Below are positions 39,344 to 51,976 of a stretch of DNA of 51,976 nt, piece after piece; the first letter of the stretch is position 1; each line of letters begins with the position of its first letter. The notes beneath the pieces were generated by a model, which was not told where the DNA came from, did not search any database, and was given only the letters and a program-made list of their open reading frames with translations. Position numbers and translations under genes: made by a program. Source of the stretch: an uncultured Lachnospiraceae bacterium (GTDB taxonomy: Bacteria; Bacillota; Clostridia; Lachnospirales; Lachnospiraceae); contig CALWPY010000014.1 of the NCBI GenBank assembly GCA_944383545.1, forward strand, positions 1 to 51,976, read 5' to 3'.

Positions 39344-40705
39344 TTATTCGCTCAGAGCCGCTTTAATCATAAGGGCACATTCTATACGCTTTCTTTCCAG
39401 CTTACATCCGGTTTCATATACATCAAATATATTCCCGTGAAACTGGTATGAATTTGCAGCACATCCTCCACTGCAATAAAATCTTGCAAAGCAGTCTCTG
39501 CATTTTTCTTTGGCATATACATTACAAAGCTTGAAATCGTCGGTAATATCCGGTCTTTCTATACCGTTAAATACATCACCAACTTTAAATTCCTCATTTC
39601 CGACAAACTGATGACACGGATAAAGGTCTCCCCAAGGCGTAACTGCCAGATACTCCGTACCCGAGCCGCAACCCGAAAGTCTTTTATATACACATGGTCC
39701 ACCCGTAAGGTCAATCATGAAATGAAAGAAGTTTACAGGTTTTCCTTCTTTATGTCTCTTTATGAGATACTTCGCCAGCTTGTCATATTCCTCACAGATA
39801 ATATCTATATCCTCATCCTTTATTGCATAATCACAGGAAGGGTCAGCCACCACAGGCTCTATGGAAATCTGGTCAAAGCCATTATCAGCAAGCTCCTTTA
39901 CGTCTTCAGAAAAATCTAAATTGTAATGTGTAAATGTACCTCTTACATAATAACTTTTATCGCCTCTCATCTCTGCAAATTTCTTAAATTTCGGCATTAT
40001 TATGTCATAACTTCCCTGTCCGTTTCTTGCAGGGCGCATCATATCATTTATCTCTTTTCTTCCGTCAATGCTTAAAACCACATTAGCCATTTCTTTATTG
40101 GCAAATTCCATTATCTCGTCATTTAAAAGAATTCCGTTTGTTGTAAGCGTGAAACGGAATTTTTTATTTGCTTCCTTTTCCCTGCTTCTGCCGTATTCCA
40201 CCAGGCGCTTCACCACATCAAAATTCATGAGCGGCTCGCCGCCAAAGAAATCCACCTCAAGATTTACCCTGTTTCCTGAATTTTCAATCAGAAAATCAAG
40301 TGCCTGTTTTCCTACTTCATACGACATAAGAGCTCGTCTTCCCTTGTACTCGCCTTCTTCTGCAAAACAGTATTTGCAGGCAAGATTACAGTCATGTGCA
40401 ATATGCAGGCACAAAGCCTTTACAACCGTTTTTCTTTTCTTAAAATCTATAATTGCATCACGATACACATCCTCAGTAAAAAGCATGCCATTTTTTTTAA
40501 GCTCTGTTACACTGTCATATGCTTCTTCTATTTCCGCATCGCTTAAATTTTCTGTTTTATTTTTTATAATCTCAACAATCTCTGCTTTTGTATGATTTTC
40601 ATACACTTCTATAATGTCATAAACCAAATCGTCCACAACATGTACAGAACCGCTGCACACATCCAGCACCATGTTATATCCGTTATTTTTATACTGATGT
40701 ACCAT
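39344..40705 (-). CDS. scfB: SCIFF peptide radical SAM/SPASM maturase
   Basis: A 453-residue radical SAM enzyme with a short N-terminal peptide-binding (RRE-like) part, the Fe-S motif CNLACKYC (Cys106, Cys110, Cys113) and a Cys-rich SPASM domain (CGSGTEY, YPCHQF, CRDCFARFYCSGGC). Such enzymes form thioether links from cysteines to nearby alpha-carbons in the SCIFF peptide, here encoded 86 bases upstream. Order SCIFF precursor, maturase, secDF is a clostridial hallmark. The biological role of the product is unknown. Confidence 0.95.
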   Translation of the reverse strand: MVHQYKNNGYNMVLDVCSGSVHVVDDLVYDIIEVYENHTKAEIVEIIKNKTENLSDAEIEEAYDSVTELKKNGMLFTEDVYRDAIIDFKKRKTVVKALCLHIAHDCNLACKYCFAEEGEYKGRRALMSYEVGKQALDFLIENSGNRVNLEVDFFGGEPLMNFDVVKRLVEYGRSREKEANKKFRFTLTTNGILLNDEIMEFANKEMANVVLSIDGRKEINDMMRPARNGQGSYDIIMPKFKKFAEMRGDKSYYVRGTFTHYNLDFSEDVKELADNGFDQISIEPVVADPSCDYAIKDEDIDIICEEYDKLAKYLIKRHKEGKPVNFFHFMIDLTGGPCVYKRLSGCGSGTEYLAVTPWGDLYPCHQFVGNEEFKVGDVFNGIERPDITDDFKLCNVYAKEKCRDCFARFYCSGGCAANSYQFHGNIFDVYETGCKLERKRIECALMIKAALSE

Positions 40706-40791: not shown

Positions 40792-40932
40792 TTACTTATT
40801 TTCACAGCTCTGATTTCCTACAGTGCATGAAGTCTTGCATGCAGACTGACATGAAGTCTGGCACTCACCACAGCCGCCCTTTGTCATAGTATTCTTTAAT
40901 GTGTTATTTGTTAAAGTCTTTATTCTTTCCAT
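40792..40932 (-). CDS. scfA: SCIFF ribosomal peptide precursor (46 aa)
   Basis: This short gene encodes 46 residues with six cysteines in the C-terminal half (positions 21, 24, 28, 32, 36 and 43), starting MERIKTLTNNTLKN and with the GGCGECQTSC core: the six-cysteines-in-forty-five-residues (SCIFF) family. The cysteines alternate with Thr/Ser acceptor residues (for example CQTSC, CKTSC) at which the maturase forms thioethers. AGGAGG lies 8 bases before the ATG. It directly precedes its maturase gene and follows a small membrane-protein gene. Confidence 0.95.
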   Translation of the reverse strand: MERIKTLTNNTLKNTMTKGGCGECQTSCQSACKTSCTVGNQSCENK

Positions 40933-41512: not shown

Positions 41513-42163
41513 CTACTGAAACAATTTCTTTATGCTTATTATTTCACTGTATATTTCCGAAGCTCTTTTTTTCACCTCATCATTCGGCTGTATCAGGTCC
41601 ACTACCATTACGGTATAAAGTCCGGCTGTACTTGCAGATATTACACCGTTTATGGAATCCTCAACACCTATTGTCTTTTCAGGTTTTACCTGAAGCAGTT
41701 CACATGCTTTAAGATATATATCAGGTGCCGGCTTCCCGTTTTTTATCATATCACCATATACCATTTCGTCAAAATATTCGTAAAGACCATGTGCTTTAAG
41801 ATGTTTTTCCGCCCTTTCCCTGTAAGTAGACGTTGCAAGCGCAATTTTAATGCCTCTTTCAGAAAGAAATTTAAACAATTTTTTTACGCCGGGTTTAAGC
41901 TCCATTCCATGTACTGAGGTATAAGCATCCATTTTAGTCATAAATTCCGAACGGAACTCATCATAGCTTATTTTCGTGCCCATGATTTCAGCAAATACAT
42001 GCCTGTTGCTCTCTCTGGTACCACCCGCCAGCCTGTCACTCAGCCTTGAGAGAGTTTCGTCGGAAGCTCCAAGCCTTTTTCCGACCTCTCTCTCAAATCT
42101 TCTGTAAAGCTTTTCAGAATCAAAAATCACTCCGTCCATGTCAAATACTACAGCATCAAACAT
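41513..42163 (-). CDS. HAD-superfamily phosphatase/phosphomutase (beta-PGM-like)
   Basis: A 216-residue HAD hydrolase: motif I DMDGVIFDSE (nucleophile Asp8), a helical cap after it (residues 15-80), motif II ATSTYR (Ser/Thr), conserved Lys in KNGKPAPDIY and motif IV GVEDSINGV. The form resembles beta-phosphoglucomutase and small sugar-phosphate phosphatases; substrate not predictable. It starts 1 base after the stop of the giant Ig-like gene and is last in the kinase-phosphatase operon, which is an unusual place for such an enzyme. Confidence 0.9.
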   Translation of the reverse strand: MFDAVVFDMDGVIFDSEKLYRRFEREVGKRLGASDETLSRLSDRLAGGTRESNRHVFAEIMGTKISYDEFRSEFMTKMDAYTSVHGMELKPGVKKLFKFLSERGIKIALATSTYRERAEKHLKAHGLYEYFDEMVYGDMIKNGKPAPDIYLKACELLQVKPEKTIGVEDSINGVISASTAGLYTVMVVDLIQPNDEVKKRASEIYSEIISIKKLFQ

Positions 42164-42164
42164 A

Positions 42165-45100
42165 TTATTTATCCTTTTTTCTTCTCTTTAATAAAATTAT
42201 AAATATTATCAATGCAGCTACTAATACTACGCATATGATAATTATCCATATTATACTGAAGTTGGAGCCGTATTCAAAATTTATCGTCTGTTCCGCGGTA
42301 TTTCCTGCTTCGTCATGAGCTTTTGCAACAATTTCATAGTTTCCTTCACTGCTTACGGTAAATGTTGCAACATTATTTTCAATACTCTGTTCCACTCCGT
42401 TAAGAGTTACTGAATCCAGTGTATCCTCTTCAAGCTGTAGAGATACCATGACAGTAACTGCATCCTCAATATTATCCCCGTCTTCAACCCCGGTAATCAT
42501 AATATTAGGAGCCTTTGTATCTATGATAAACTCTATGGTTTTCTCAACCTCATTGTCCATTTCATCTATTGCCACTACTCTAAGAACATGTCTTCCGTCA
42601 GATACTTCAGAGAGTCCGTCATATTCAACACCGTCCAGATATACTGTTACATCACATACCGTAAGGTCGCTTACAAGGTCATCATATTCATAATTCCAGT
42701 TAAAGCTGTTTAAAACCTTTCCGTCATAATCTGCAAAGTCAATGATTACAGGCGGTGTTTTATCTATGGTAAAGTGTATAACTTTGACTGTACTGTTTCC
42801 TGCCTTATCTGTAGAAGTAACATTTATATCGTAAATTCCGTCCTCAGTAAATTCCCTGGAAACAACTGAAGTTCTTGAAGAATTTACATTATAATCGCCA
42901 AAGTCAATCTCATGCATTGTTCCGTTTATGTCAGTACGTGTTCCACTCAGCGTAAGATTGTTTGAGGTATAGAAATCCTCTATTACACTTATATTAAATA
43001 TTACTGAATCTCCGGTAACATCAAAATTTTTAACTCCTGAAAGTGATATCTCAGGCGCATTACGGTCAAGTATAAATGTATATGACCTTGTAGCACTGTT
43101 TCCTGTCCTGTCTTCTGCAGTAAATTCAAATCTGTATTCACCGTCTTCCGTAAAGGTCTGGGAAAGTGTATCATCGGCAGAATCCGGCGCAAAGTCTATG
43201 GTAGTAACCAGACTTTCCTGTGTACCGTCTATTGCCCTGTATACATCAATACGCCCTGCCGGCATATCCCAGTAAAATGCCTCTTTTATGCCAAAGGTCA
43301 TTGTTACCTGACTTGTCGAAGTCCCGCCTTCTGTAGTTCCCGTAATGCTTAATTCAGGTGCCGTTTTATCAACTCTGAAGTTTACTGTCCTTACTTCACT
43401 TGCATTTCCGGCTCTGTCAACTGACTGGTAGCTTATCTCATAATCAGCTTCTGTAGTATATGTACCTGTACCTTCTCCCACCTTCTGAGTGGTTGTAACC
43501 GTCTGCTGACCCGGCTGAGTAACCCTCACCGTCTGTGTAAGGTCATCTGAATCTTTATTTGTATCAGAAACGCTTACGTTGAGCGAAGCATCTGCTGCAA
43601 GATACCTTACTCCTGTAGAGTTAGTGAGCGTCGTACCATTAAGTACTGTTGTAATTTCAGGAGCTGTCCTGTCAATCGTAAATGATACACTTCTGTCCGC
43701 ACCCGAATTATCTGCAGAATCTGTACTGCTTAAGCCGATGGTATGTGTTCCCTCAGGCATTACTGTTACTGTCGCTTTATAAACGCCATTTATTAATGTC
43801 CATTCAGGATTTATTACATTACCGTTATCCGTAACGATAATATTACATTCATTTACATCTGACACACTTAAGTCAAGTGTTACATTTCCTGCATAATACT
43901 GTCCATATACCGCACCATTATATGAAGTATTACTGTATTTGCTGATTTTAGCAGGCTGACCTGCCGTAACAGTCATTTCGTTTACAGGATTTGTATTATC
44001 CAGAGTAAATGATACACTGTCTGTCGCTTCATGTTTTGCACGGTCTTTTGCGGAAACAGTAATCGTATATTTTCCGTCAGCAGGTGACGCACCGATAAGC
44101 TCACTTAACTTCTTTTCGCCCTTATAGCTGTCATTTGTAATAGTTACTCTGGTATCATCAGGCTTTATTATTACCATACTTCTCTCATCAACTAATATAT
44201 TGTCACTGTCAGATGATGATATTACAGGGTCTCCGTTTAATATGGAATTATCGTTTTCATATCTTTCATCTGTAACTGAAACGCCTGCTTCCGGATTTTC
44301 ACTGTCTACAAGGAAGTGATATGTATAAACTTTGTAATTACCCTGTTCATCGTATACAGTTAATTCTACTTCAGTGCCTTCATTGTTTGTGGAATTAAGT
44401 ATGGTTACTTTTGCAGCAGCTGTATCAACACCTTCAAACACATCCTGCTTCGTATCTTCATCTGTAGTCTGATTAACCACAATCTTTGAGACTTCCGATG
44501 TATCATCAGTTACATTAAATGTAACATTAAGCTCTTTTCCGTTATAGCCGTCAAAGCAATGATTTTCAGCTTCATAATCGCTTATATTGTCGATAGTTGC
44601 CAAAATGTCACCACTGCCGTTATTTAACAATATTTCTGAAATTTTCGGTGCCGTATTGTCAATGGTTATCTCAAAGGTTTCTGGTCCTACGGAGCCTATG
44701 TTATCACTTGCAGTAAGCGTTATTTCATATGTACCATCCTTAGGCATTTCGTTTTCTATCATATTGCCATTAAGTAATTGTGATAATTTTGTATTAATAC
44801 TAATATCTGCACCATTGGTATTACCATCATTATACACTATCGAGGAATTTCCATTACTGTCTGTATATCTTATGGTTATCCCCGCACTTCCGCCGAGTTC
44901 ATCGCCCTGCTTTATGGAAGCATTTATCACCGGATTTCCGCTTACTGTCTGTCCTGTTAATATTTCATCTGCATTTTCAGTTGTAACTTCAATACTTAAT
45001 TCAGGCGCGGTATTATCAACCTTATAGGTCTCAACCGCATTCTCATTGTTAGCTTCAGGCCAGTAAATAACATTTCCTGCATTATCCACAGCTTTGACCT

Positions 45101-47480
45101 TAACAGTTGTTCCGTCTGTAGTGTCAGATTTTTTAACCTCAACCTGATATTTTCCACTCGAATCTGCTGTTACCGCTGAATATTCACCATTATCCTGACT
45201 TACTGCAAGGGTTTGTATGCCGGAATTATAATTTCCTGAAGAGTCACCTGCAGTAAATATTATTGTCAAATTACGATACCAGTCATTATTTTGTGCACTA
45301 GATGTCACTCCATTATAACTGATAGAAGGATTTGTTATATCCACAAAGAGAATTGTTGCATCTTTGCTTCCTTCAGCCCCATTAGTGTTTTTTGCAGTAA
45401 ACTTATAATTTCTTTCCATAGAGGAAGTTTCAGTCATATTATATACTATATCAGTAGTATAATCCGTCTCGCCCTGCTTTATATATGACTGTCCTTTGTT
45501 TACGGAAGATGTATCAATCGAGCCCGTTTTGTCAGTTAATGATACTGTATCTGTATCTATAGGTACGTCAGAGGTTATGGTTACCTTTATAGAATAAAAA
45601 GTAGCATTCGTAAGTATACCTACCTTTTCTCCTACCACCCAGTTATTATTCTGAGTACTGTCTCCATATGCATTATTCATTGAATTTGAAAAATCAAATT
45701 CAATCTCTATATCTACATTATCCTTATAATACTCAAGACTTGTAATTTGCTCATCACTTAGCACATTACCTGCTTTATCTTTTAAGGTGACATAATATGT
45801 AACTGTTTTTCCCTTAAATTCTTCATTATCTACAGGTACCGGTATATTTATATCCATGTTACTACCGTTTACAGTTCCTGATACATTGGAAACAGTCGTC
45901 GTCCCTTCACTTCCCGAAACGGTATAATATACCTCATAACTTTCTACTCCCGAAATATTATCTGTAGCTGTAAAGTTAATATTGTATGCTTTTTTATATG
46001 TACATTTTTCGTCTTGACCTAATTCCTCTGACTGTCCGCTTTCTGTTACTTTTACAGAATTTTCTGCTATTTTAGGAGCTTCTGTGTCATAACATACACT
46101 GAAAACAAATGAAGCCTTTTTTCCCACTCTATTGTCCGCTGTTATTTTATAATATTTTATGCAATCATTACTCGGTCTTTCTATACTGTAAGATTCTGTG
46201 GATGTGTACCATGATTGCATGTCAACCCATTCATCTCCATCATCACTTGACTCTAATTTTATATACATGACATCTGTTGCAGAAGTTATATCCCATGTCA
46301 CATCAACATTGCCCGTTGTGCTATAAAGCAACGCGTTCTCCTTTATAGCCAGTGCATCGCCTCCGTTTACAGTAACATTCACATTGCTAATAGTTATATC
46401 TGAAGATAAATAACTTATTATTACCGTTTTTTTATCAGACTCGTTTCCTGCGGAATCTTTAACAGAAATTTCATAAGTAACTTTTTTTCCTGCATCCTGC
46501 TCTGAAGGATTAATAGTATATTCGTATTTATACTGACCATCTGCTTCACTTCCGGTGATATTTACGTTTTGCTCCGTTCCGTCCTTTTTTACCACCAGCG
46601 TTCCGTTTTCACCTGCCGTAACTGAAACTGTGTGGGGTATTATAATTAATTGATCTGACAGCGTTGTTTCATTTCCCGTTACAGAGCTTCCGTCTATCTG
46701 AAAATCACTTATTACAGGTGCTTTATTATCACAATCCGCAGTAGCAGAAGATACTGCCTGTGTATCAGGGTTTCCGTCACCGTTAGAATCCAAACCTATA
46801 TATCCGTAATAAGCTGCCTCTGTACCGTCATTAATGTCAAAAGTATTTTGTGACTGCCATTCAAGACCACTGTCAGCATTACTTTGAGATATTGAATAAT
46901 AAATATCTCCGTAATAATATGTTCCTGCATCAGAAATACTTGAAACACTGTTTACAATGCTTTCTGTGGTTGTAGTGCCACTTGTAACTGAGGCTTTTTT
47001 CGTTGTGCCGTCATATGAAATTTGAACACTTCCTGACAGCCACTCTGCCTCTGTGTAGCCGTCTGCCGTTAATTCGATTGAAGGGCTCAAGTCCGCTATA
47101 CTGTCCTCCTGCTTACATACGTATATGTATAAACTTGATGCATTTATAGTACCGGATGTTATCTCACTGGATTTATCGGCACTGTATTTAACCACATAAC
47201 CCTGACCGTCTACAGTATCGCCTAACTGTGCATTAATATTGGAAATATCATAAGTAATATTTCCCGAAGAATAATACTTCAAAGTAATTGTTTTTGTAAC
47301 AGTATCTGCCGTACTTGCTTCATTTATAACTAACGTAGGAATAGAAGTTACTTCGGTATCATCAGCTGCTTCCGCCCTCTCATTCCTGTTATCAATATAA
47401 ACAACACCAAGCACCATAACAATCGCCATTACTATGGCGGTTACTTTTGATAAAATTTTTCGTCTTACAGTTCCTTTCAT
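42165..47480 (-). CDS. Giant membrane-anchored surface protein with Ig-like repeats (1,771 aa)
   Basis: The protein starts with a signal peptide (basic start, hydrophobic 13-28, likely cut after AEA near residue 38) and ends with a membrane helix (WIIIICVVLVAALIIFIILL) and KRRKKDK, so it is anchored in the membrane with almost all of it outside. From about residue 250 it has about 12 units of roughly 100 residues, each opening with a D-x-T/K-APE-type strand (near residues 250, 462, 710, 817, 937, 1053, 1157, 1270, 1370, 1471, 1570 and 1650), as in bacterial Ig-like surface domains. No LPXTG signal. Role in adhesion or envelope scaffolding is inferred; it is fourth gene after a kinase in one operon. 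Confidence 0.88.
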   Translation of the reverse strand: MKGTVRRKILSKVTAIVMAIVMVLGVVYIDNRNERAEAADDTEVTSIPTLVINEASTADTVTKTITLKYYSSGNITYDISNINAQLGDTVDGQGYVVKYSADKSSEITSGTINASSLYIYVCKQEDSIADLSPSIELTADGYTEAEWLSGSVQISYDGTTKKASVTSGTTTTESIVNSVSSISDAGTYYYGDIYYSISQSNADSGLEWQSQNTFDINDGTEAAYYGYIGLDSNGDGNPDTQAVSSATADCDNKAPVISDFQIDGSSVTGNETTLSDQLIIIPHTVSVTAGENGTLVVKKDGTEQNVNITGSEADGQYKYEYTINPSEQDAGKKVTYEISVKDSAGNESDKKTVIISYLSSDITISNVNVTVNGGDALAIKENALLYSTTGNVDVTWDITSATDVMYIKLESSDDGDEWVDMQSWYTSTESYSIERPSNDCIKYYKITADNRVGKKASFVFSVCYDTEAPKIAENSVKVTESGQSEELGQDEKCTYKKAYNINFTATDNISGVESYEVYYTVSGSEGTTTVSNVSGTVNGSNMDINIPVPVDNEEFKGKTVTYYVTLKDKAGNVLSDEQITSLEYYKDNVDIEIEFDFSNSMNNAYGDSTQNNNWVVGEKVGILTNATFYSIKVTITSDVPIDTDTVSLTDKTGSIDTSSVNKGQSYIKQGETDYTTDIVYNMTETSSMERNYKFTAKNTNGAEGSKDATILFVDITNPSISYNGVTSSAQNNDWYRNLTIIFTAGDSSGNYNSGIQTLAVSQDNGEYSAVTADSSGKYQVEVKKSDTTDGTTVKVKAVDNAGNVIYWPEANNENAVETYKVDNTAPELSIEVTTENADEILTGQTVSGNPVINASIKQGDELGGSAGITIRYTDSNGNSSIVYNDGNTNGADISINTKLSQLLNGNMIENEMPKDGTYEITLTASDNIGSVGPETFEITIDNTAPKISEILLNNGSGDILATIDNISDYEAENHCFDGYNGKELNVTFNVTDDTSEVSKIVVNQTTDEDTKQDVFEGVDTAAAKVTILNSTNNEGTEVELTVYDEQGNYKVYTYHFLVDSENPEAGVSVTDERYENDNSILNGDPVISSSDSDNILVDERSMVIIKPDDTRVTITNDSYKGEKKLSELIGASPADGKYTITVSAKDRAKHEATDSVSFTLDNTNPVNEMTVTAGQPAKISKYSNTSYNGAVYGQYYAGNVTLDLSVSDVNECNIIVTDNGNVINPEWTLINGVYKATVTVMPEGTHTIGLSSTDSADNSGADRSVSFTIDRTAPEITTVLNGTTLTNSTGVRYLAADASLNVSVSDTNKDSDDLTQTVRVTQPGQQTVTTTQKVGEGTGTYTTEADYEISYQSVDRAGNASEVRTVNFRVDKTAPELSITGTTEGGTSTSQVTMTFGIKEAFYWDMPAGRIDVYRAIDGTQESLVTTIDFAPDSADDTLSQTFTEDGEYRFEFTAEDRTGNSATRSYTFILDRNAPEISLSGVKNFDVTGDSVIFNISVIEDFYTSNNLTLSGTRTDINGTMHEIDFGDYNVNSSRTSVVSREFTEDGIYDINVTSTDKAGNSTVKVIHFTIDKTPPVIIDFADYDGKVLNSFNWNYEYDDLVSDLTVCDVTVYLDGVEYDGLSEVSDGRHVLRVVAIDEMDNEVEKTIEFIIDTKAPNIMITGVEDGDNIEDAVTVMVSLQLEEDTLDSVTLNGVEQSIENNVATFTVSSEGNYEIVAKAHDEAGNTAEQTINFEYGSNFSIIWIIIICVVLVAALIIFIILLKRRKKDK

Positions 47481-47492
47481 TCTCTCACCCCT

Positions 47493-48221
47493 TTAAATGT
47501 TTTCATTCGTATGAACTATCTTTACTTCATAAACTACCGAAATTTTTCTGCCTGATTTATTTACGTCTGAGACAGGAGCGTCCATACTTCTAAGTACTCC
47601 TGTTTCCTCAGGGCTGTAATTTCCAATAATTGTGTTATCTCTGTATTTATCTGATGCCTGACTTAATACATCGGTTACTGACTCAGAAGTCAGTACATCA
47701 GTCTTTTCTGAATCAGCCAGAACATCAGTAGGCTCTTCAGATACCGCTGCAAGTACATCTGTTTTTTCATCATCTTCTGATGAGAGAACATCAGTTGTCA
47801 CATCGTTTCCATTATCATATCCTAAAACATCGGTCTTGCCGTCACCAGTGTCATATCCCAAGACATCAGTTTTATCATCATTTCCCTTAGCTCCTGTGTA
47901 TCCAAGCACCTCAGTACTTTCTTCATCCACGGCCGAGGATTTTTTTCGTAAGTTTTTTGTCCTATGCTTTAAACCGTCCGAAGTTGTATCTACGGCATCT
48001 CTTACTGTAATCCTGCTGGTTTCTGCCTTTATGGCATCCTGCTTGGATTTTGCCTCATAACCGGTTTTTTGTATTGCTTCAATACTCTTTCTTTGTGTAT
48101 GTCCGGTCAAATCTCCAAAGACCTTAGGAATTTTAAGAACAAAGAACAGTACGACCGTCACTATGAGAAACATTATGGCAAGTACCAGACCACCGTAAAA
48201 TAACACTCTGTATAATCCCAT
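47493..48221 (-). CDS. Membrane protein with TDVL-repeat cytoplasmic tail
   Basis: A 242-residue protein with one N-terminal membrane helix (about residues 4-28), a basic stretch after it, and a disordered acidic tail. The tail holds eight T-[DE]-V-L motifs plus one TGVL, spaced 9-24 residues (three as TxVLGY), suggestive of repeated phospho-acceptor sites in a kinase operon. Positive charges after the helix place the tail inside the cell, on the kinase side. The ATG at 48221 is chosen; a longer reading runs into the kinase gene in another frame. The gene starts 4 bases after the kinase stop. I recognise no named family. Confidence 0.8.
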   Translation of the reverse strand: MGLYRVLFYGGLVLAIMFLIVTVVLFFVLKIPKVFGDLTGHTQRKSIEAIQKTGYEAKSKQDAIKAETSRITVRDAVDTTSDGLKHRTKNLRKKSSAVDEESTEVLGYTGAKGNDDKTDVLGYDTGDGKTDVLGYDNGNDVTTDVLSSEDDEKTDVLAAVSEEPTDVLADSEKTDVLTSESVTDVLSQASDKYRDNTIIGNYSPEETGVLRSMDAPVSDVNKSGRKISVVYEVKIVHTNENI

Positions 48222-48225
48222 CTTC

Positions 48226-50373
48226 TCACTCTCCCATCTGTTCCGAAATTCCTGCAGCCCCGTCTTCTGCAGTACTGTCTTCTTCTGTACCTTCTGTTGA
48301 AACAGAATAATCATGTGACTTAAGCTTTTCCATTGTAGCCATTCTCTTTGCCCATGTAGCATTATTCGTTATATTTTTAACAGAACTTCCTTCTTCATAT
48401 ACTGTAAGTATCATCACTGCCTGAGCTTCAGTCCATTGTTCAGGGTCTGATTCAATATCTTCCAGATATTCATATATATAGTTCAAATGCTCTGCATATA
48501 TTCTGTTGCTGTAATCACTGTCCTTCCCGATTATGCCTTCTGCTTCCTCGTATATGGAAACAGCTTCGTCATAATCGCCTTTTATACCATAAATTTCAGC
48601 AATCTTGCACATTTTTATCACATATGCCCTGTTATACGCCTGCACATTTTCATTGTTACTGTTCGTTCCCAAAACATCTGCAGGTATCTGATTTATAACA
48701 TTCTGACACGCCTGAACAGCCATGTCATAATAGGTTTCATCTTCCTTTTCTTCTGCCAATGTCTCATAAATCACGGAAAGACTGTCATTGTAGCTGTAAA
48801 GATACTTAGATGCATCTTCGCCCGTATATTCATCCAAATCCTCTAATGCCTGAGTCATGGTTTCTTCTGCCTTTTCAGCTACCCCTTCTGTCTGAATATA
48901 TGTGGTGTAAATTCTTCCCAATGTCTCATAATTTACAAATTTTTCTTCATCATCATTTGAAAATCTGCTTATATTATACGAAGCAAACCCGTCGACATTC
49001 TGCATAAGCTCACTTACATCTACGTTTGTACTTGAAAGAATAAGTGAGATACTTCCGTAATATGCCGCCAGCTCACCATAATCCTCGTCGTTTTCGTCTA
49101 CCATTCTGAAATACTGGGTTGCAGCGCTGTAATCTTCAAGCTCCACAAAATAGGTTATACCCATTTTATATAACACTTCATTCTGTTTATCTACGTTGCC
49201 GTAACCGTTTTTTATTCTGTTTGCAATCACATTCAGTCCGTCTTCAAGAGAAAGCTGTGAAACTCCCTCTTCATTTACGTCATGTTCCGAGTCTATGTAA
49301 AGGTCTATGTATTTTACATAAGCCTCTGATTCTTCTCCTATTAAATCAAATGCAGATTTATACTCATCAGCCGCCTGACGGTAATCCCCTTCTGCTTTTG
49401 CTTCATTTCCTGATTCTATGTATGCTGTATAATTTTCGTTTTCAATCCTTTTTATTCCGGTGTAACCCACTATAGTGGTTGCCGCCGCAACAATAGTAAG
49501 CGCCGCCGATACTGCAAATAATGTCATTTTCTTTTTATTTGCCCTGCGGTATGAATCATCGAGCTCCGTATAATGGTCAAGGGCATATAAAAGTTCCGAA
49601 CACGACTGGTATCTGTCGTTCGGATTTGGCTGTGTACACTTTAAAATTATTTTTTCAAGCCCTGTTGAAAGAGCCGGATTCCACTGTCTTATCGGCTTCA
49701 TTTCATAAGGCGGCTCACATGGATTTTTTCCTGTAACTATATGATAAAGAGTTGCACCGAGATTATATATGTCTGTTCTGGCGTCAGTCTTATAAAGACC
49801 TCTTCCCTGTGCATCGCCAAACTGCTCAGGTGCAGCATAGCCTCTCGTTCCTAATGCCGTGGTGTCAGCGTTGTTTTCTATTGTATATTCTTTTGCCGTT
49901 CCAAAGTCTATCAGCTTTACGCCGCCCTCCGGCTTGAGCATGACATTGGAAGGCTTCATGTCCCTGTATATTATAGGCGGATTCATGGAATGAAGATAGT
50001 CCAGAGCACTGGCAAGCTGGCGTCCCCATTCTATGACTTTATCCTGGGGCTGTGCTCCCTCTTCTTTTAATACCTCTGCCAGATTTGTTCCCTCAATGAA
50101 ATCCATTACTACATAAATGATACCCTTCTGGTTAATGATATCAACTATTCGCGGAAGTACGGGGTGGTCAACATTTTTTAATATGTTAGCTTCTCTTTCA
50201 AGTCCCTTGAGGAGAGTTTCAGCGCTTTTGGAGCCGTCATTTTTTATTTCCTTGACCGCCCACTGCTTATTTAATCTGTTATCTCTCGCAAGGTATACAA
50301 TTGACATTCCACCCCTGCCGATTTCCTTTAATATTTCATATTTTCCGTCTAAGACCATACCTTCTTTAGCCAT
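48226..50373 (-). CDS. Transmembrane Hanks-type Ser/Thr kinase with helical-repeat ectodomain
   Basis: A 715-residue kinase. Residues 10-270 form the kinase domain: glycine loop GRGGMS (19-24), Lys41, catalytic loop YRDMKPSN with Asp138 (the usual His is Tyr), DFG Asp156, and GTRGYAAPEQF activation segment. A membrane helix spans about 283-303. The C-terminal 400 residues are helical and acidic, with repeated short motifs like TPR units (EAKAEGDYRQAADEYKSAF), and are placed outside the cell. The kinase is active-looking. It lies 12 bases after a PP2C phosphatase gene and 4 before the TDVL-repeat gene. Confidence 0.95.
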   Translation of the reverse strand: MAKEGMVLDGKYEILKEIGRGGMSIVYLARDNRLNKQWAVKEIKNDGSKSAETLLKGLEREANILKNVDHPVLPRIVDIINQKGIIYVVMDFIEGTNLAEVLKEEGAQPQDKVIEWGRQLASALDYLHSMNPPIIYRDMKPSNVMLKPEGGVKLIDFGTAKEYTIENNADTTALGTRGYAAPEQFGDAQGRGLYKTDARTDIYNLGATLYHIVTGKNPCEPPYEMKPIRQWNPALSTGLEKIILKCTQPNPNDRYQSCSELLYALDHYTELDDSYRRANKKKMTLFAVSAALTIVAAATTIVGYTGIKRIENENYTAYIESGNEAKAEGDYRQAADEYKSAFDLIGEESEAYVKYIDLYIDSEHDVNEEGVSQLSLEDGLNVIANRIKNGYGNVDKQNEVLYKMGITYFVELEDYSAATQYFRMVDENDEDYGELAAYYGSISLILSSTNVDVSELMQNVDGFASYNISRFSNDDEEKFVNYETLGRIYTTYIQTEGVAEKAEETMTQALEDLDEYTGEDASKYLYSYNDSLSVIYETLAEEKEDETYYDMAVQACQNVINQIPADVLGTNSNNENVQAYNRAYVIKMCKIAEIYGIKGDYDEAVSIYEEAEGIIGKDSDYSNRIYAEHLNYIYEYLEDIESDPEQWTEAQAVMILTVYEEGSSVKNITNNATWAKRMATMEKLKSHDYSVSTEGTEEDSTAEDGAAGISEQMGE

Positions 50374-50385
50374 CTCAATCCCTCA

Positions 50386-51156
50386 CTAAATTGTTTTTAT
50401 TACTGCTACCGAAATATTATCAGTTTCTTTTCTGTTCTTAACAAGCTCTGTAAGATATATACAGCCGTATTTCATCTCATCCTCATTGGAAACTGCTATA
50501 GGTCCTATTTTTTCTATCATCTCTTCATCTGAAATCTGATGTCTGAAGCCGTCCGAACAGAGCATATATACTGCATTTTTACTAAGCTGGCCTTTTACGA
50601 AATCCGGCTCAACCACCTGTGAAGCCCCCACACACTGAAGCAGGACGCTTCTTCTCGGGTCAACCTTTGCCTCTTCTTCGCTCATTCTCCCCATTGCCAC
50701 CTCTCTGGCAATAAAAGTCTGGTCCGTTGTGAGCTGTTTAACAACATTTGTCATTTCATATATACGGCTGTCACCCACATGCACGATATGATATTCCCCA
50801 TTAAACATAAGAATGGCAGATACCGTAGTACCAAGCATTATATTGTTGCTTGCTCCATAGCTTCCAAGACGTTTGTTCTGTGTCTGTATTATTTCATTCC
50901 ACTGCTCCCTTAATGTCGTAAATGAAAAATTGTTATTTAACACGTCTTTTGTAAATACTTCATCAAACCATTTTATAAAAGCTATAAGTACCTCTTTGCT
51001 TGCCAGTTCGCCCTTGGACAGACCGCCCATTCCGTCACATACAATCCCCAGAGCGGCCATTCCCGAAGGCGTATTTATTATTTTTATTGCAAGCGAATCC
51101 TGATTGGTCTCTTTTCTGATACCCACATCTGTATTATAAGCTGCTATGAACTCCAT
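50386..51156 (-). CDS. PP2C-family Ser/Thr protein phosphatase
   Basis: A 256-residue PP2C/Stp-type phosphatase. Metal-binding acidic residues occur in NQDSLA, VCDGMGG, the VGDSRIYE strand and the MLCSDGF motif, the last near residue 200. Such enzymes reverse Hanks-kinase phosphorylation. ATG at 51156 follows AAGGAG and is 1 base after the FHA gene stop, so translation is coupled; a longer reading to 51186 would overlap that gene. Next gene is the kinase. Confidence 0.96.
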   Translation of the reverse strand: MEFIAAYNTDVGIRKETNQDSLAIKIINTPSGMAALGIVCDGMGGLSKGELASKEVLIAFIKWFDEVFTKDVLNNNFSFTTLREQWNEIIQTQNKRLGSYGASNNIMLGTTVSAILMFNGEYHIVHVGDSRIYEMTNVVKQLTTDQTFIAREVAMGRMSEEEAKVDPRRSVLLQCVGASQVVEPDFVKGQLSKNAVYMLCSDGFRHQISDEEMIEKIGPIAVSNEDEMKYGCIYLTELVKNRKETDNISVAVIKTI

Positions 51157-51157
51157 A

Positions 51158-51976
51158 TTATTCTCCTTTTCTAAGAAGGAATACAAATTCCTCGTCCCCT
51201 AATTTTACTTCTGCATTGTTTTTAAGCAGAACTTCTTCTCCCTGACTAAGTTTCTTTCCGTCAACATATGTTCCGTTTGTTGAATCGTTATCCTTTATAT
51301 AGTTTACTCCGTTTCTTTGAATTATTATACAGTGCACTCTGCTTATGGCCGCATTATTATCTATGGAATAATCTGCATTTACATGAGATTTTCCGATTTT
51401 AAATTCTGGTTTTGTTATATATATTTCTTCATTATTCTTCTTTCTCACCAAATGAGGTCTCTGCTGCTGAGACACAGACTGTGGTGCGGGCTGTGGCGCC
51501 GGTGCAGGTGCAGGCTTCGGCTGCTGCATCTGCGGTGCAGGCTGTGACACAGGTGCCTGTGTTAATTTTGATGTTGATGCAGGTTTTTCCTGCTGCATCT
51601 GCGGTGCAGGCTGTGGTATCGGTGCAGGTTTCGGCTGCTGCATCTGCGGTGCAGGCTGTGGTATCGGTGCAGGTTTCGGCTGCTGCATCTGCGGTGCAGG
51701 CTGTGGCATCAGTGCAGGTTTCGGCTGCTGCATCTGCGGTGCAGGCTGTGGCATCGGTGCAGGTTTCGGCTGCTGCATCTGCGGTGCAGGCTGTGGCATC
51801 GGTGCAGGTTTTGGCTGCTGCATCTGCGGTGCAGGCTGTGGTCTCATCTGCGGTTGTTGCGGCATTGGACCTCCCTGCATCTGTGGCATACCCTGTGGTC
51901 TCATCTGCGGTTGTTGCGGCATTGGACCTCCCTGCATCTGTGGCATACCCTGTGGATTCGGCTGGAAATTATTGCT
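51158..51976 (-). CDS. FHA-domain protein with Pro/Gln-rich repeats (5' end cut by window)
   Basis: The reading frame is open to the right edge, so the start lies beyond it. The visible part has a Met/Pro/Gln-rich repetitive region (two 19-residue units, then about six PAPQMQQPKPA-type units of 15 residues) and, in the last 95 residues, an FHA domain: FKIGKSHVNADY, ISRVHCIIIQ, DNDSTNGTYVDGKKL and a final ...FVFLL strand. FHA domains bind phospho-threonine; Rad53-FHA2-like types prefer Leu/Ile at +3. First visible gene of the kinase operon, so a reader of its phosphorylation is the natural role. Confidence 0.93.
   Translation of the reverse strand, partial: SNNFQPNPQGMPQMQGGPMPQQPQMRPQGMPQMQGGPMPQQPQMRPQPAPQMQQPKPAPMPQPAPQMQQPKPAPMPQPAPQMQQPKPALMPQPAPQMQQPKPAPIPQPAPQMQQPKPAPIPQPAPQMQQEKPASTSKLTQAPVSQPAPQMQQPKPAPAPAPQPAPQSVSQQQRPHLVRKKNNEEIYITKPEFKIGKSHVNADYSIDNNAAISRVHCIIIQRNGVNYIKDNDSTNGTYVDGKKLSQGEEVLLKNNAEVKLGDEEFVFLLRKGE
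51588..51857 (-). repeat. 45-bp tandem repeat in FHA gene
   Basis: The unit GGCTGCTGCATCTGCGGTGC recurs at 51633, 51678, 51723, 51768 and 51813 in exact 45-bp steps, with a diverged unit near 51588. It encodes the 15-residue Pro/Gln/Met-rich units of the FHA protein; near-identity suggests recent expansion. Confidence 0.9.
51841..51954 (-). repeat. 57-bp perfect tandem duplication in FHA gene
   Basis: 51841-51897 and 51898-51954 are identical, encoding two 19-residue Met/Pro/Gln/Gly-rich units. The array may continue past the window. Confidence 0.9.

Follow-up and report, generated by a model that had tools for sequence, protein, structure and literature searches.

A repeated T-x-V-L tail as a candidate phosphothreonine scaffold in a kinase-phosphatase-FHA unit of Lachnospiraceae

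Five adjacent genes of a Lachnospiraceae contig, encoding an FHA adaptor (J), a PP2C-type phosphatase (F), a transmembrane kinase (D), a membrane protein with a repeated T-x-V-L tail (K), and a giant Ig-like protein (I), probably form a membrane phosphothreonine module. We put the probability of this reading, in which the kinase writes on the threonines of K, the FHA domain reads, and the PP2C erases, at roughly 70%. By sequence, the five genes match the J-F-D-K-I components of the type VII secretion system (T7SS) variants T7SSe and T7SSj. The unit is already known from some T7SS loci, and the K tail of repeated motifs is the new part.

Gene organization and conservation

The window, meaning the whole stretch of DNA analyzed, is the entire contig C14 (G000:C14; 51,976 bases), and the FHA gene is therefore truncated by the contig end. 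A first-pass annotation had described a tightly packed six-gene operon, and the recomputed coordinates bear this out, with six co-directional genes separated by gaps of 1, 12, 4, 12, and 1 bases (Table 1). The assigned identities also hold, as Pfam returns FHA, PP2C_2, Pkinase, Big_13, and HAD_2. Scans of the window found promoter-like sites at the chance level (36 versus 35.8 expected) and eight terminator-like sites versus 6.1 expected.

Table 1 Positions of the genes and features of the unit
Feature	Position	Strand	Basis
HAD-family hydrolase; adjoins the unit, outside the conserved set	41513..42163	-	Pfam HAD_2
Giant Ig-like protein (I), 1771 aa	42165..47480	-	Pfam Big_13, hydropathy
TDVL protein (K; TsxK/TsxH-like), 242 aa	47493..48221	-	Hydropathy, charge
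Conserved element at the C-terminus of K, perhaps a beta strand, KISVVYEVKIVHTNENI	47496..47546	-	Loose pattern
Nine T-x-V-L motifs of K (1 TEVL, 7 TDVL, 1 TGVL)	47592..47915	-	K tail sequence
Transmembrane Hanks-type Ser/Thr kinase (D), 715 aa	48226..50373	-	Pfam Pkinase, hydropathy
Activation loop DTTALGTRGY, includes T-x-x-L-G	49837..49866	-	Kinase D sequence
PP2C-type Ser/Thr phosphatase (F), 256 aa	50386..51156	-	Pfam PP2C_2
FHA adaptor (J), C-terminal part, open at contig end	51158..51976	-	Pfam FHA, TRF
FHA domain with phosphothreonine-site residues GKS, SRVH, STNG	51197..51400	-	PF00498, 62.4 bits

Relatives were collected in two ways. The whole TDVL protein, and so also its tail, was the query for the first 35 loci (L056-L090), of which 27 have a called K, and this set is thus biased toward the motif. 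A second set, reported apart, was chosen by the kinase and comprises the best 80 of at least 578 confirmed stretches (L091-L170). Genes of relatives come from a simple ORF script that missed or mis-started some, and the K and J motif counts refer to called genes. In the kinase-chosen set (best 80 of at least 578), where K, PP2C, and FHA were scored on six-frame ORFs, a K homologue follows the kinase in all 77 testable loci; a PP2C precedes it in 76 of 80, and 59 of 64 have an ORF of 600 aa or longer downstream. The TDVL and Ig-like genes are thus regular rather than rare neighbors of the kinase, and this three-gene grouping, picked out in the first-pass annotation, is stable. A point against the proposed reading is that no FHA was found within 6 kb upstream in 19 of 75 of these loci.

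The giant protein I has a hydrophobic N-terminus, Big_13 domains, and a C-terminal transmembrane (TM) segment followed by a short basic tail. Its association with the module had been put forward as unrecognized, but T7SSe and T7SSj contain such a protein (PMC11217815). The HAD gene is ruled out as a member: among the called genes of 115 neighborhoods, several of them shortened by contig ends, a homologue (E<1e-10) occurs in L056 alone.

Kinase and phosphatase

Kinase D consists of an N-terminal cytoplasmic kinase domain that retains its catalytic motifs, a single TM segment near residue 283, and an ectodomain that is helical and TPR-like by Pfam and by a structure model. The kinase domain finds its best sequence matches in StkP and PknB. 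Assignment to the PASTA kinases was rejected, with 215.6 bits for PknB_PASTA versus a cut-off of 450 and no PASTA match by Pfam. Phosphatase F scores 159.5 bits with the Stp1/IreP model, below the cut-off of 230. The structure model has low confidence over the kinase domain (mean pLDDT 63), and the matches listed for a search with it are generic kinases. We also considered that the activation loop carries the very same word as the K tail and dropped the idea, as T-x-V-L-G occurs in one of 106 loops; T-x-x-L-G is present in 103 of 106 and may be generic.

The T-x-V-L array of protein K

Protein K has no Pfam match over the cut-off and no NCBIfam match. It begins with a hydrophobic stretch, which the hydropathy script counted as two adjacent windows, and positive charge is greater after than before this stretch in 84 of 91 K proteins; the C-terminal tail is thus predicted to be cytoplasmic. 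Against the nine T-x-V-L copies in the window K tail, 20,000 shuffles gave 0.12 on average and never more than 2. The loose pattern for the C-terminal element is found in 66 of 91 K proteins versus 12 shuffled.

In 91 non-redundant K tails (7 of 98 were removed), T-x-V-L occurs 192 times versus 5.4 in shuffled sequence, whereas S-x-V-L stays at chance (4 versus 4.2). The same contrast appears in the 63 K proteins of the kinase-selected subset, drawn from the best 80 of at least 578 loci (T-x-V-L 110 versus 3.5, S-x-V-L 2 versus 2.7), and with one representative for each of 44 clusters at 40% identity (72 versus 2.3 and 2 versus 1.9). Selectivity extends to the +3 position. Specifically, threonine followed by leucine at +3 is found 403 times versus 86 shuffled, while isoleucine (72 versus 78), valine (53 versus 78), and aspartate (47 versus 71) are not enriched there, nor is serine with +3 leucine (77 versus 68). 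The 1454 other neighboring proteins, used as a control, contain 199 T-x-V-L and 211 S-x-V-L, with no threonine bias. On these counts, Thr and +3 Leu are both required, which is the pattern that a phosphothreonine ligand of an FHA domain should show, although the +3 selectivity rule is called controversial in PMC4037201. The K motifs resemble sites where a phosphothreonine-binding protein would dock, and the proposal that the TDVL tail is a dedicated ligand of this kind gains sequence support. Against it stand the 32 of 91 K tails that lack T-x-V-L and the 12 that lack even T-x-[VILM]-[LIVM].

The word is often extended to E-T-x-V-L-G. A literature search on the motif strings, covering open-licence papers only, returned unrelated matches only.

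The FHA adaptor J

The J fragment in the window comprises a proline/glutamine-rich repeat linker, with Tandem Repeats Finder (TRF) repeats at 51578-51955, and the FHA domain. Contig C11 begins with an open frame (L019:2-949) that shares the MPQ repeats of window J and contains DUF6382 (27.0 bits, just over the cut-off of 26.7). The full protein is therefore probably DUF6382-linker-FHA, with its gene split between C11 and C14. Relatives display two architectures, with either DUF6382 or a trypsin-like domain at the N-terminus. A model of the J protein of L145 is confident (pLDDT 86); its motif linker is disordered, without a docked peptide, a point against the docking model. Structures near the FHA domain of this model include EmbR, GarA, OdhI, and DgcB-FHA bound to its own phosphopeptide, and in both searches with this model the matches were filled by the FHA domain and not by DUF6382. 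A kinase-like fold for DUF6382 is without support, as its sequence profile gave a single chance-level match against the PDB and 0.3% probability when compared with the kinase domain.

The phosphate-site motif SRxH is retained in 65 of 71 J proteins; this count, the word counts, and the doublet tally took in all 71, while enrichment was computed on the 66 left after five redundant ones were removed. In the linkers of these 66, T-x-V-L occurs 81 times versus 5.1 shuffled and S-x-V-L three times versus 5.1. The word is present in 43 of the 66 linkers and in both architectures (27 of 39 and 15 of 21), usually as a doublet, and its last threonine lies 46-54 residues before the S-R-x-H of the FHA domain in 37 of 42. 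J-like proteins from genomes lacking K carry it in 2 of 17 cases (p 9e-5), a control of 20 loci taken from the best-scoring DUF6382 matches of K-negative genomes rather than a random draw; three of the 20 yielded no usable linker, and several of the remaining 17 are short.

The placement of the doublet at a near-constant distance before the FHA domain suggests a switch in which J may bind either itself or K, as in OdhI/GarA. In the window subclade, the word is absent from J and K carries 2-10 copies of T-x-[VIL]-L; with the word confined to K, J there should act in trans only. Some comparisons between the two proteins count against the proposed reading. T-x-V-L is in neither member of 8 of 59 J/K pairs (3 of 59 for the broader T-x-[VIL]-L), and motif counts in K and J are weakly correlated (Spearman 0.23, p 0.08). 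We also looked for co-loss of the FHA gene and the K motif, and none is clear: K keeps a mean of 2.6 words in 32 loci where no J was called, contig ends having truncated some of them, versus 3.5 in 59 loci with J.

Proposed mechanism and alternative readings

In the proposed module, the hydrophobic N-terminus of K would anchor it in the membrane beside the kinase, leaving the tail on the cytoplasmic side. Kinase D would phosphorylate the threonines of the T-x-V-L repeats, the phosphorylated words would become docking sites for the FHA domain of J, as their Thr and +3 Leu specificity suggests, and the PP2C would clear them. If every phosphorylated word docks J, K would be a multivalent scaffold gathering J at the membrane by the kinase and the giant protein I. 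The N-terminal domain of J probably contacts a machine for secretion or pili as the regulated output, which is the least certain step. In the first-pass model, the kinase ectodomain would sense the envelope, and FHA recruitment would tune the surface protein or a machine. A wider generalization is tentative, and we would hesitate to bet on it: a single T-x-V-L phosphothreonine-FHA code, comprising a doublet in near-fixed register in two unrelated kinds of J adaptor, a K array of up to 17 copies, and a looser T-x-x-L-G form in the kinase activation loop, might shift adaptors between self-bound and scaffold-bound states and steer T7SS and Flp/Tad machines in Bacillota through interchangeable adaptor N-termini.

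The module could instead be strictly a T7SS part, serving as an in trans kinase for the EssC loci that this genome has on contigs C7 and C17, with the pilus links coincidental. We regard this as unlikely, if still a serious contender. Its components match T7SSe/T7SSj, and EssC is commoner in K-positive genomes (18 of 35 versus 32 of 165 others; odds ratio 4.4, p 2e-4), as is YukD (14 of 35 versus 19 of 165), where K-positive means a K match at E<=2e-9 and six weaker matches are counted as negative. Within this genome, YukD is over the cut-off on C7 and just under it on C17, and the C17 T7SS locus encodes a trypsin-like/TM/FHA protein with SGETSVLG ahead of its FHA domain. However, EssC was not found at E<=1e-60 in 17 of the 35 K-positive genomes. 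Most of 90 K loci have neither kind of machine nearby; at least 15 are close to Flp/Tad genes and at least 7 to T7SS genes, in fetched stretches of ~10 kb each way on contigs that are sometimes short. Near the unit on C14, a contig that ends inside gene J, we saw none of the genes for a T7SS ATPase, WXG100, or YukD.

Improbable, in our judgment, is a role for K as a phosphate sink or decoy, in which its sites would compete with the J doublet to set a threshold without recruiting J for an output at the membrane. Numbers would suit such a role, with up to 17 T-x-V-L sites in one K (L157) versus usually two in word-bearing J. Yet the J of the window clade has no word to compete while its K keeps the array, and the giant ORF following most kinase-chosen loci (best 80 of at least 578) suggests a localized output. 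We give still less credit to T-x-V-L as a linear docking motif that works without phosphorylation, for instance for the kinase, the PP2C, or another partner: valine and leucine are conserved along with threonine, as in many hydrophobic docking peptides, but serine replaces threonine no more than chance predicts, and the word is found together with FHA adaptors and lies at a near-constant spacing from the FHA phosphate site. That the repeat is a functionless low-complexity or duplication artifact is very improbable, for although K tails are short, acidic, and, from their sequence, probably disordered, the codons for Thr, Val, and Leu differ while the word stays the same and TRF (score 40) finds no DNA repeat inside the window K tail, which rules out DNA duplication, and the Thr/Ser contrast and the enrichment hold across the 44 clusters.

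The phosphothreonine module would bear on a question left open in PMC11217815, as far as its available text goes, namely the kinase target and FHA ligand of the T7SS variants. The K and J words offer a testable answer in the form of predicted phosphosites, a reader, and a switch. If true, phosphothreonine control of secretion, known from T6SS, would also operate through a multivalent scaffold in the envelope of Gram-positive bacteria, and such a signaling unit would be linked to Flp/Tad pilus loci as well.

Comparison with known systems

The closest relatives of the unit are T7SSe and T7SSj of Bacillota, variants described in 2024 with components D, F, I, J, and K, for which PMC11217815 already suggests phosphoregulation. 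Their TM kinase D with an N-terminal cytoplasmic kinase domain and the adjoining PPM/PP2C phosphatase F are both present in the window, as is the DUF6382-FHA protein J, here split over C14 (FHA) and C11 (DUF6382). The single-TM protein with an unstructured cytoplasmic stretch is fitted by the window TDVL protein, as either K or H, and the giant Ig-like protein I, with a signal peptide and a C-terminal TM, by a window protein with both hydrophobic ends in hydropathy. The T7SSj subtype combines a TPR ectodomain on the kinase, as in TsjD, with the lack of an H component and an ATPase of the T7SSj clade; the unit may belong there, with TPR-like kinase helices and one small TM protein only. In contrast to the K and J motifs described here, the strings 'TVL', 'TDVL', and 'trypsin' do not occur in the main text of PMC11217815. 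Tad-pilus neighbors are reported there for T7SSg and T7SSh and, as far as its available text goes, not for the kinase unit, whereas some unit copies here have them.

PASTA kinase/Stp pairs such as StkP and PknB differ in the kinase ectodomain, which is PASTA there and TPR-like in window D.

We know of no counterpart of the J N-terminal domains, DUF6382 or trypsin-like, in the OdhI/GarA system. The near-fixed spacing in most word-bearing J may reflect an OdhI/GarA-type site that binds the FHA domain in cis; window-clade J lacks the word. Here, the word repeats up to 17-fold on a separate membrane protein, and the unit also encodes a PP2C and a giant Ig-like protein. In OdhI/GarA, a short ETTS motif N-terminal to the FHA domain is phosphorylated by the kinase, whose own autophosphorylated threonines recruit the FHA protein (PMC8546545).

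The T6SS PpkA-TssL-Fha pathway follows a similar logic, in that a membrane component is phosphorylated by a kinase on a cytoplasmic threonine, which an FHA protein then binds to switch on secretion (PMC3953482). It uses one site (Thr 14) where K has an array, and it belongs to another machine in another phylum.

Relationship of the operon to described secretion components

The genes lie in the order FHA adaptor (J), PP2C phosphatase (F), transmembrane (TM) kinase (D), small TM protein (K) and giant Ig-like protein (I), and correspond to components J, F, D, K and I of the type VII secretion (T7SS) variants T7SSe and T7SSj, in the available part of PMC11217815. In that account K crosses the membrane once and has a brief cytoplasmic segment without structure, and phosphoregulation is suggested. 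The window kinase has TPR-like helices following the TM, a feature given there for TsjD. The operon as such is therefore already described, and the first-pass annotation, whose operon coordinates and intergenic gaps proved exact on the sequence, was mistaken in treating the joining to a giant surface protein as unrecognised. Its interpretation is supported in part: the tail motif is specific for Thr and +3 Leu, as would fit an FHA ligand. The strings 'TVL' and 'TDVL' are absent from the main text of PMC11217815, as far as available, and the literature searched by motif strings and component names yielded no description of the K tail motif or its twin in J linkers.

The source assembly measures 2.26 Mb, and the window is one complete contig, at whose end the J gene is open. 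An open frame at the left end of contig C11 of the same genome encodes a DUF6382 domain and MPQ repeats as in the window J, so the complete adaptor is probably DUF6382, repetitive linker and FHA, with its gene split over C11 and the window; the two portions were treated separately, unjoined. Further on, C11 encodes a zinc-ribbon protein, another protein of DUF6382-FHA type and one that is YceG-like. Genome-wide there are 12 FHA matches, three kinases and two EssC-type ATPases, on C7 and C17.

Coordinates of the operon and of features in the window and in fetched loci
Feature	Location	Strand	Observation
Operon	window 41513-51976	-	FHA gene at contig end
FHA linker repeats	window 51578-51955		PQ-rich, near-identical, at contig break; C11 frame ends in same repeats
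Cysteine-rich ORF	window 40792-40932	-	46 aa, six Cys; SCIFF-like
Neighbour of this ORF	window 39344-40705	-	taken to resemble a radical-SAM maturase
Hydrophobic protein (example)	L102:12206-12712		~155-170 aa, about four hydrophobic segments; often between K and giant protein in relatives, absent there from window
Tad-type adaptor	L130:7886-9160		TadZ-like receiver, DUF6382 and FHA in a single protein; a direct link of Tad-type and FHA domains
C17 FHA protein	L020:8428-10065		trypsin-like/TM/FHA protein of T7SS locus; SGETSVLG 60 residues ahead of SRxH

A threonine-specific motif in K tails

Across 91 non-redundant K tails (13,008 residues, 1247 Thr, 1007 Ser), T-x-V-L (TxVL) occurs 192 times versus 5.4 after shuffling (maximum 16 in 500 shuffles), whereas SxVL occurs 4 times versus 4.2. 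Thr with Leu at +3 (T..L) is found 403 times versus 86 shuffled; T..I, T..V and T..D fall under their chance means. K proteins from loci selected by the kinase alone (n = 63) give 110 TxVL versus 3.5 shuffled and 2 SxVL versus 2.7, with T..L in 61 of the 63, and one representative from each of 44 clusters at 40% identity gives 72 TxVL versus 2.3. Among 1454 other neighbouring proteins, TxVL (199) and SxVL (211) are about equal. The Thr codon varies among copies in 32 of 42 K proteins with at least two TxVL, counted over whole proteins. The contrast between TxVL and SxVL, the +3 Leu enrichment and the codon variation make Thr and +3 Leu look selected at the protein level.

FHA domains bind phosphothreonine and discriminate against phosphoserine, with a debated +3 preference (PMC4037201, in part). 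By its sequence, the K motif has the features expected of an FHA ligand, and we predict it to be one; its absence from 32 of 91 K tails counts against this reading. As to the predicted K topology, 84 of 91 proteins are more positively charged behind their hydrophobic segment than ahead of it. The last 20 residues hold a conserved element, often IHTDEVI-like, possibly a docking strand; 52 of 91 proteins fit its strict pattern [ST]-x-E-x-[IL].

The same motif ahead of the FHA domain

TxVL recurs in the linkers of 43 of 66 non-redundant J adaptors (81 copies versus 5.1 shuffled; SxVL, 3 versus 5.1; 84 versus 5.0 for TxVL in all 71 J). Two unrelated architectures share this operon slot: 39 of 60 full-length non-redundant adaptors are DUF6382-linker-FHA and 21 have two hydrophobic segments, and the motif is present in 27 of 39 and 15 of 21, respectively. 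The four of the latter examined by Pfam (L084, L093, L096 and L142) all consist of trypsin-like domain, TM, linker and FHA; such an extracellular protease might relay external events to the phospho-network. In 37 of 42 adaptors the last motif Thr is placed 46-54 residues ahead of the Ser of S-R-x-H, the FHA phosphate-site motif, and the last two motifs are spaced by 10-12 residues in 31 of 35. J-like proteins from genomes without K carry the motif in 2 of 17 cases versus 43 of 66 (Fisher p = 9e-5).

The window subclade is an exception: the motif is absent from all seven of its J (two identical) and from both window J parts, but its K proteins have 2-10 copies of T-x-[VIL]-L, a pattern that fits a trans mode. 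Kinase activation loops resemble the motif loosely, since T-x-x-L-G is found in 103 of 106 and T-x-V-L-G in one; this likeness is perhaps a feature of Hanks kinases in general.

Conservation and machine association

A kinase-alone scan of named genomes gave at least 578 confirmed stretches, of which the best 80 were used; by title these are mostly Lachnospiraceae and other Clostridia with a few Bacillus-type species. Within these 80, the kinase is followed by a homologue of K at all 77 testable loci, and 59/64 have an ORF of 600 aa or more in the next 4 kb downstream, bearing out the proposed association of tail protein and giant ORF with the kinase; PP2C precedes the kinase in 76/80, and an FHA domain lies no more than 6 kb upstream in 56/75. 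The K profile had no matches among 1698 upstream ORFs. K occurs in 35 of 200 genomes of the window's family (E ≤ 2e-9).

Within the fetched stretch, 15 of 90 K loci have Flp/Tad genes nearby, seven have T7SS genes and 68 have neither. In the family set, 192 of 200 genomes carry DUF6382 and 192 the Flp-linked DUF5702, and the same eight lack both; DUF6382 thus goes with the Flp cluster across this family. EssC is found in 18 of 35 K-positive versus 32 of 165 other family genomes, with no match in the remaining 17 K-positive genomes. We conclude that J-F-D-K-I forms a semi-autonomous module for signalling that is enriched alongside T7SS and not tied to it. The C17 locus also encodes its EssC ATPase and a YukD-like protein slightly below cut-off; the C17 FHA protein is a plausible trans target of the module.

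Proposed mechanism and known analogues

Gene order, conservation, motif specificity and placement, catalytic and phosphate-binding motifs and predicted topology are what the sequences show. Beyond these, we propose that D would phosphorylate the motif threonines, J would bind the phosphorylated motif and F would take the phosphate off, the network acting on a secretion or pilus machine. Modelling of the adaptor from locus L145 gave a disordered motif linker, and near-top solved FHA folds in the structure search include DgcB with its own phosphopeptide, EmbR, GarA and OdhI. OdhI/GarA is one analogue: in the available part of PMC8546545, phosphorylation falls on an ETTS motif ahead of an FHA domain, and phosphothreonines on the kinase draw in the FHA protein. 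TssL-Fha of T6SS is the other (PMC3953482, in part).
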